A stretch of 64,000 nucleotides of DNA, from the NCBI GenBank assembly GCA_020050685.1, contig JAGVKG010000022.1, positions 1 to 64,000 of the forward strand. Direction: 5' to 3'. Under the pieces are notes generated by a model that searched no databases, was not told the DNA's origin, and was given only the letters and a program-made list of their open reading frames with translations. Made by a program: the position numbers and the translations under genes. This DNA comes from Candidatus Obscuribacterales bacterium. Its GTDB lineage: Bacteria > Cyanobacteriota > Vampirovibrionia > Obscuribacterales > Obscuribacteraceae. Positions 46,812 through 47,978 of this stretch are shown in pieces (within the stretch, counting starts at the first letter, position 1; each line of letters starts with the position of its first letter).

Positions 46812-47522
46812 TCAATCCACCGCGATCCCAAGATGCTTACGACAAATTTCTAAAATCTTCTCCACCACTTGCTCGATGCTCAAATGATCCGTGTTCACTT
46901 CAATAGCATCATCGGCCTTGCGTAAGGGATCGACCTTTCGCGTCGAATCAATTTCATCGCGGCGTTTGATATCTTGCAAAACCGAATCATAGTCTAGGAC
47001 CTGTCCGAGTTGGGCAAGATCGTTGATTCGGCGGTGCGTGCGCACATCGGGACTTGCGGTCAAATAGATTTTTACGTCCGCATTTGGCAGAACGGCAGTG
47101 CCGATGTCGCGCCCTTCCAGCACGGCACCGCCTGTGGTGGCAATTTTTCTTTGTTGTTCCAACAGAGTCTTTCGCACGCCGGCAATGGTTGACACCGGGC
47201 TGACGAAGGCGCTCACTTCCGGCATGCGGATATCGCGCGTGATCTCGGTGCCATTCACATAAACACGCACGCGCCCACCGGATGTTTCATCTTTTGGTTT
47301 AATGACAATTTCGGTACGATTTACCAAATCGACAATCGCATCGACATCTTCGATGTCTAAATTATTTTGCAGAGCAAGCCAGGTTACCGCTCTGTACATC
47401 GCGCCCGTATCGAGATACAAGCAGCCGAGAGCATCTGCTACTTTTTGCGCAACAGTAGATTTGCCGGCCCCTGCCGGTCCATCGATTGCTACAACTAGTT
47501 TGCCAAGATTTGAATTAGGCAT
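46812..47522 (-). CDS. cmk: Cytidylate kinase
   Basis: A 236-residue (d)CMP kinase. The P-loop is GPAGAGKSTVA, followed by YLDTGAMYRAVTWLA, the CMP-binding region EGRDIGTAVLPNADVKIYL and the late RDEIDSTRKVDPL segment. It phosphorylates CMP and dCMP in the cytoplasm. Length and motifs are standard. The selenoprotein gene upstream is co-directional, 26 bases away, and may be co-transcribed. Confidence 0.95.
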   Translation of the reverse strand: MPNSNLGKLVVAIDGPAGAGKSTVAQKVADALGCLYLDTGAMYRAVTWLALQNNLDIEDVDAIVDLVNRTEIVIKPKDETSGGRVRVYVNGTEITRDIRMPEVSAFVSPVSTIAGVRKTLLEQQRKIATTGGAVLEGRDIGTAVLPNADVKIYLTASPDVRTHRRINDLAQLGQVLDYDSVLQDIKRRDEIDSTRKVDPLRKADDAIEVNTDHLSIEQVVEKILEICRKHLGIAVD

Positions 47523-47548: not shown

Positions 47549-47887
47549 CTATCTATCAAGAAAGCGTTTCGTGAACCATTGAAAAAAACTTGGCGGTTTT
47601 TCAATATTTGCACTTGCCTTGGCTTGCGCTTCTTCAATGGACACCCCAGCTTCCAATAACTTTACGATCTCGATTACTTCACAGTCTTCAGGAAATCTGC
47701 TGACGGCCTTTTTGGAAAAGATCAATTGTCCATTATGCTCAACTTCAAAAATACCACCAGAGCCTTGAATCAATGCCGATGACTCACCAAGTTTTCCTTC
47801 GATTTCGGCTGCCAACCTGACAGCCCGGTTGCGGTAGCCTCAAGCTCCGCAATAAGTGATGATGAATGGGGGTTTTTCGGGGGGCAT
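47549..47887 (-). CDS. SelW-like selenoprotein (Rdx family), UGA read as Sec16
   Basis: 112 residues from the ATG at 47887 if the in-frame TGA at 47842-47840 is read as selenocysteine. The N-terminus is MPPEKPPFIITYCGAUGYRN, with the CxxU motif (Cys13, Sec16) in the first beta strand, exactly where SelW/Rdx proteins have it. The part after the TGA also fits (GIFEVEHNGQLIFSKK, FPEDCEVIEIVKLL). AAGGA lies eight bases before the ATG. A bacterial SECIS-like hairpin follows the TGA directly (47839-47807). Rdx proteins have a thioredoxin-like fold and redox roles. A normal gene finder would report only the 88 residues after the TGA. UGA is a true stop elsewhere in this window. sel genes are not in the window. 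Confidence 0.85.
47807..47839 (-). promoter_or_regulatory. bSECIS-like hairpin after the Sec codon
   Basis: The minus strand directly after the UGA can pair GGCT/AGCC, CC/GG and AACC/GGTT around a 9-nt apical loop that begins GGG. One A-C mismatch and a 2-nt bulge interrupt the stem. A G at the loop start and the short UGA-to-loop distance agree with bacterial SECIS models, though the distance is at the short end. Confidence 0.55.
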
Positions 47888-47910
47888 ATCGGTTTCCTTG
47901 TATGAGAGAT

Positions 47911-47978
47911 CCTTCGTCGCTTCGCTCCTCAGGATGACAATCTGCTTGCAGCAGGCGAGGCGTGCCTCGCCCCTACGG
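47911..47978. repeat. Dispersed repeat with REP-like palindrome, copy 2
   Basis: CTTCGTCGCTTCGCTCCTCAGGATGACA (47912-47939), followed by the palindrome GGCGAGGCGTGCCTCGCC and CCTACG. Both parts match 28568-28637. The last ten bases (CGCCCCTACG) also occur at 35699-35708. Confidence 0.6.

Follow-up and report, generated by a model that had tools for sequence, protein, structure and literature searches.

We identified a selW-like gene interrupted by a single in-frame UGA in a member of Candidatus Obscuribacterales (Melainabacteria, Cyanobacteriota), a non-photosynthetic relative of cyanobacteria, and found by computation that the UGA is conserved, that a conserved SECIS-like hairpin accompanies it, and that the same genome carries a complete selenocysteine (Sec) machinery. 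Judged from these comparisons, the UGA at codon 16 almost certainly encodes selenocysteine. The window, i.e., the whole stretch of 64,000 nucleotides analysed here, belongs to a genome of 4.2 Mb in 70 contigs (98.7% complete), and contains the following features:

46812..47522, minus strand: cmk, (d)CMP kinase (PF02224, 255 bits; TIGR00017, 254 bits)
47549..47887, minus strand: selW-like gene (Rdx family), 112 aa with TGA translated as Sec at residue 16
47807..47825, minus strand: bSECIS-like hairpin GGCTGTCAGGTTGGCAGCC (fold, synonymous-codon constraint, covariation, model R1)
47840..47842, minus strand: in-frame TGA, codon 16, in the CGAU motif (23 of the 29 family members aligned have TGA at this column)
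47895..47898, minus strand: Shine-Dalgarno-like AGGA, seen in the sequence 7 nt 5' of the ATG

A conserved in-frame TGA in an Rdx/SelW-family gene

The open reading frame extends from an ATG at 47887 to a TAG ending at 47549, with the TGA at 47842-47840 as its sole interruption. Translated with TGA as Sec, the protein begins MPPEKPPFIITYCGAUGYRNRAVRLAAEIEG..., which places the CGAU motif at residues 13-16. A preliminary description of this DNA had already given the start codon, the frame, the TGA at codon 16, the CxxU motif at residues 13-16 and a ribosome site before the ATG, and our coordinates, including the AGGA, agree with it throughout. Its assignment of the product to Rdx/SelW likewise held in profile searches, in which the protein scored 66.2 bits against PF10262 (Rdx; curated cut-off 22.6) and 57.5 bits against TIGR02174 (CXXU_selWTH; cut-off 34.2). 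Solved Rdx/SelW structures were also matched by sequence, and because of this homology, structures included, we regard family membership as settled. Both positions of the CxxC/CxxU motif are invariant as C or U in our alignment (A1), and by analogy with the family the product would most likely act as a thiol/selenol oxidoreductase through its CxxU active site.

Next to the gene and on the same strand is cmk, whose ATG (47522) lies 26 bp downstream, as expected from the preliminary description's placement of the frame upstream of cmk. The same arrangement, with cmk co-oriented and 3' of the SelW gene, either directly or after ~1 kb, recurs in 22 relatives' loci, which suggests that the SelW-cmk linkage is old. 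The intergenic region upstream of the selW-like gene holds TCATCCTGAGGAGCGAAGCGACGAAGGATCT at 47907-47937 and the palindrome-like GGCGAGGCACGCCTCGCC at 47954-47971, each present as a single copy in the window; both are possibly dispersed repeats.

While a single-sequence search of the genome contigs returned no match, a search with an alignment query did, and the named relatives among its matches were Candidatus Obscuribacter, Obscuribacterales and Melainabacteria. SelW-like matches were found in 38 of the 50 genomes of the window's family, and all 38 genomes with Rdx matches in the class sample belong to that family. Across 29 aligned SelW-like genes, the column in question reads TGA in 23 (the present gene included) and TGC or TGT in the remaining 6. 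A tree built from 81 SelW-like proteins, many of whose forks the short length of the protein leaves unresolved, places the Cys rows together in a single group within the Obscuribacterales group, a placement that fits Sec-to-Cys conversion. Several genomes of genera g5 and g18 (G004-G009, G029-G031) carry a Cys-type SelW together with a second, shorter SelW-like paralogue with an in-frame TGA, and have kept SelA.

These comparisons bear directly on whether the TGA might be a true stop, with the downstream frame being either a pseudogene or a protein of its own, 88 aa long and started at TTG. Translation table 11 does yield only that 88-aa TTG-started fragment at this locus, and annotation under the standard code cuts the gene short. 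However, coding conservation spans the TGA in more than 20 genomes, the 15 residues preceding it contain the invariant family ITYC, and homologues carry TGC or TGT at the same position. The preliminary description had named relatives with a real stop and no coding conservation upstream of it as evidence that would count against selenocysteine; what the relatives have instead is conserved coding on both sides and, in some homologues, cysteine. The comparative data largely refute a true stop, which we consider very unlikely.

A SECIS-like hairpin conserved beyond protein need

The hairpin (GGCUGUCAGGUUGGCAGCC) has a stem beginning 15 nt 3' of the UGA and carries an AGGU at its loop, the first base of which (AGGT in the DNA) falls 22 nt after the UGA. 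The fold of a 61-nt segment has an energy of -23.8 kcal/mol (z -2.6) and holds two helices, the first spanning the UGA and the second being the conserved SECIS-like helix. The bSECIS-like hairpin of the preliminary description therefore exists, with the refinement that the conserved helix is this second one, its stem starting 15 nt from the UGA. With a G in its apical loop and a position just after the UGA, the element has the properties expected of a bacterial SECIS. No Rfam match was obtained at the hairpin, although Rfam may have no model for bacterial elements of this kind; model R1 scored 64 bits here and at most 19 bits in the rest of the genome.

Conservation of the hairpin is most apparent in its codons. 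In every gene that retains Val and Arg there, codons +7 and +8 after the TGA are GTC and AGG (synonymous identity 1.0); codon +9 is mostly TTG (0.76). Most other codons have a synonymous identity of roughly 0.2-0.65. Codons +7 to +9 build the top of the hairpin, with compensatory changes in the lower stem, and at the level of nucleotides the hairpin is conserved beyond what the protein would need. Furthermore, the hairpin has been lost from the Cys versions of the gene: energies of the hairpin segment average -10.4 kcal/mol in Sec forms (range -6.8 to -15.4) vs. -2.4 kcal/mol in Cys forms (range 0 to -5.3), with no overlap between the two. The hairpin is 94% paired, with a covariation score of 0.208 vs. 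0.118 in shuffled alignments and 13 double-change cells vs. 5.0; since this shuffle control retains phylogenetic relatedness, most of the case for the hairpin is carried by the synonymous constraint and by the difference between Sec and Cys forms. Taken across many genera, the conserved position of the UGA, its frame and its hairpin are far beyond chance.

Selenocysteine machinery and its co-occurrence with the TGA form

The preliminary description implied a full selA, selB, selC and selD system elsewhere in the genome, and all of its components were found: a tRNA-Sec (69.7 bits, anticodon UCA), SelA (514 bits), SelB (335 bits, with a GTPase and SelB-wing_2/SelB-wing_3 winged-helix domains) and SelD (369 bits) with an adjoining YedF (155 bits). 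The yedF gene lies directly downstream of selD (contig C34, L019:741-1373); adjacency of selD and yedF is a known selenium-metabolism pairing, and YedF is a marker of selenium metabolism. The GC content of the machinery loci is 45-47%, compared with 47.6% in the window, and this match, together with the fact that most relatives have SelA, argues against contamination. Absence of tRNA-Sec, SelA and SelB was the other observation proposed as damaging to the selenocysteine interpretation, and because that interpretation has survived this test as well as the one on relatives with a real stop, we regard it as supported.

Presence of SelA also follows the TGA form. Using presence lists that were compiled by hand and that count shorter TGA-bearing paralogues in, we found SelA in 28 of 28 genomes with a TGA-SelW vs. 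1 of 7 without (Fisher p = 4e-6, genomes at least 85% complete). A TGA-SelW without detected SelA occurred in five relatives, all at most 84% complete. Of 386 genomes sampled evenly across the phylum, 8 have SelA, among them genomes of three other families; outside the window's family it occurs in a handful of genomes (families f8, f18 and f24; G050, G056, G065, G075, G078, G093, G102).

Two further explanations of the open frame were weighed. The TGA could be reassigned in this genome (e.g., to Trp) or read through at random, since the frame stays open only when TGA is taken as a residue; yet 7 of 34 large non-overlapping ORFs in the window end in TGA, homologues have Cys rather than Trp at the aligned position, and a tRNA-Sec with a UCA anticodon is present along with SelB, which makes this extremely unlikely. 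A sequencing or assembly error turning TGC or TGT into TGA has a negligible probability: even though the genome is a draft in which a peroxiredoxin elsewhere has a TGA resembling a frameshift, this reading is refuted by independent genomes, since 22 further genes in the alignment, all from genomes assembled separately, share the TGA, and the hairpin occurs in TGA forms only.

We are therefore highly confident that this is the gene of a SelW-like selenoprotein. Loaded with Sec-tRNA(UCA), SelB would bind the AGGU-looped hairpin just 3' of the UGA and deliver selenocysteine at codon 16, and the ribosome would read past the UGA to the TAG at 47549, giving a small protein of the SelW/Rdx family whose active site is CxxU. 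SelB-driven insertion at a SECIS adjoining the UGA is the established mechanism in bacteria (PMC1794560).

A limited search of the same genome confirmed no second selenoprotein, and as a result the whole Sec machinery may serve a single known gene. Only the selW-like gene was convincing in a genome search with the SECIS model, inspection of the next five matches giving no credible selenoprotein. An AhpC-TSA peroxiredoxin with one in-frame TGA (contig C53:61281-61619, L145) was considered and rejected because it retains the catalytic Cys (TFVCPTE) and its TGA falls where the frame appears shifted. Formate dehydrogenase-like matches had no internal stop and fell below cut-off.

Taxonomic setting and comparison with known systems

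Surveys of 2006, 2015 and 2022 reported Cyanobacteria to be without Sec decoding (PMC1794560, PMC5322559, PMC9312934). A literature search on selenium or Sec in Obscuribacter, Obscuribacterales, Vampirovibrionia and Melainabacteria gave no relevant report by title and abstract, an absence that is no proof. Our results in Obscuribacterales point to a complete and conserved Sec system within Cyanobacteriota in the broad sense, with Sec-to-Cys conversion and loss apparently visible among close relatives. As we read them, the surveys deal for the most part with photosynthetic cyanobacteria and with older collections of genomes, and the result therefore extends rather than overturns them. We lean toward the view that Sec decoding in the Melainabacteria branch is genuine and vertically kept, contrary to the surveys, with the cmk-linked SelW-like selenoprotein as its main and, in some species, possibly only client.

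The new element is this taxonomic setting; the kind of selenoprotein is already known from Sargasso Sea data, in which SelW-like selenoproteins are the most abundant selenoprotein family (PMC1088965). Like that bacterial set, the present protein has a short Rdx domain with a CxxU redox motif, occurs in Sec forms with Cys homologues, and has a bacterial-type SECIS right after the UGA; unlike it, the Obscuribacterales subfamily has a longer C-terminal tail, in which a Trp is conserved, and shows a conserved linkage to cmk. Within the SelT/SelW/SelH family, the protein exceeds the TIGR02174 cut-off but, at 78.6 bits, falls under the cut-off of 88 for NF041051, the Campylobacter equivalog. Finally, the hairpin shares with the E. 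coli fdhF SECIS its location 3' of the UGA and an AGGU motif at the loop, whereas its stem sequence is unlike that of fdhF and its AGGU starts 22 nt after the UGA, compared with 18 nt in fdhF.
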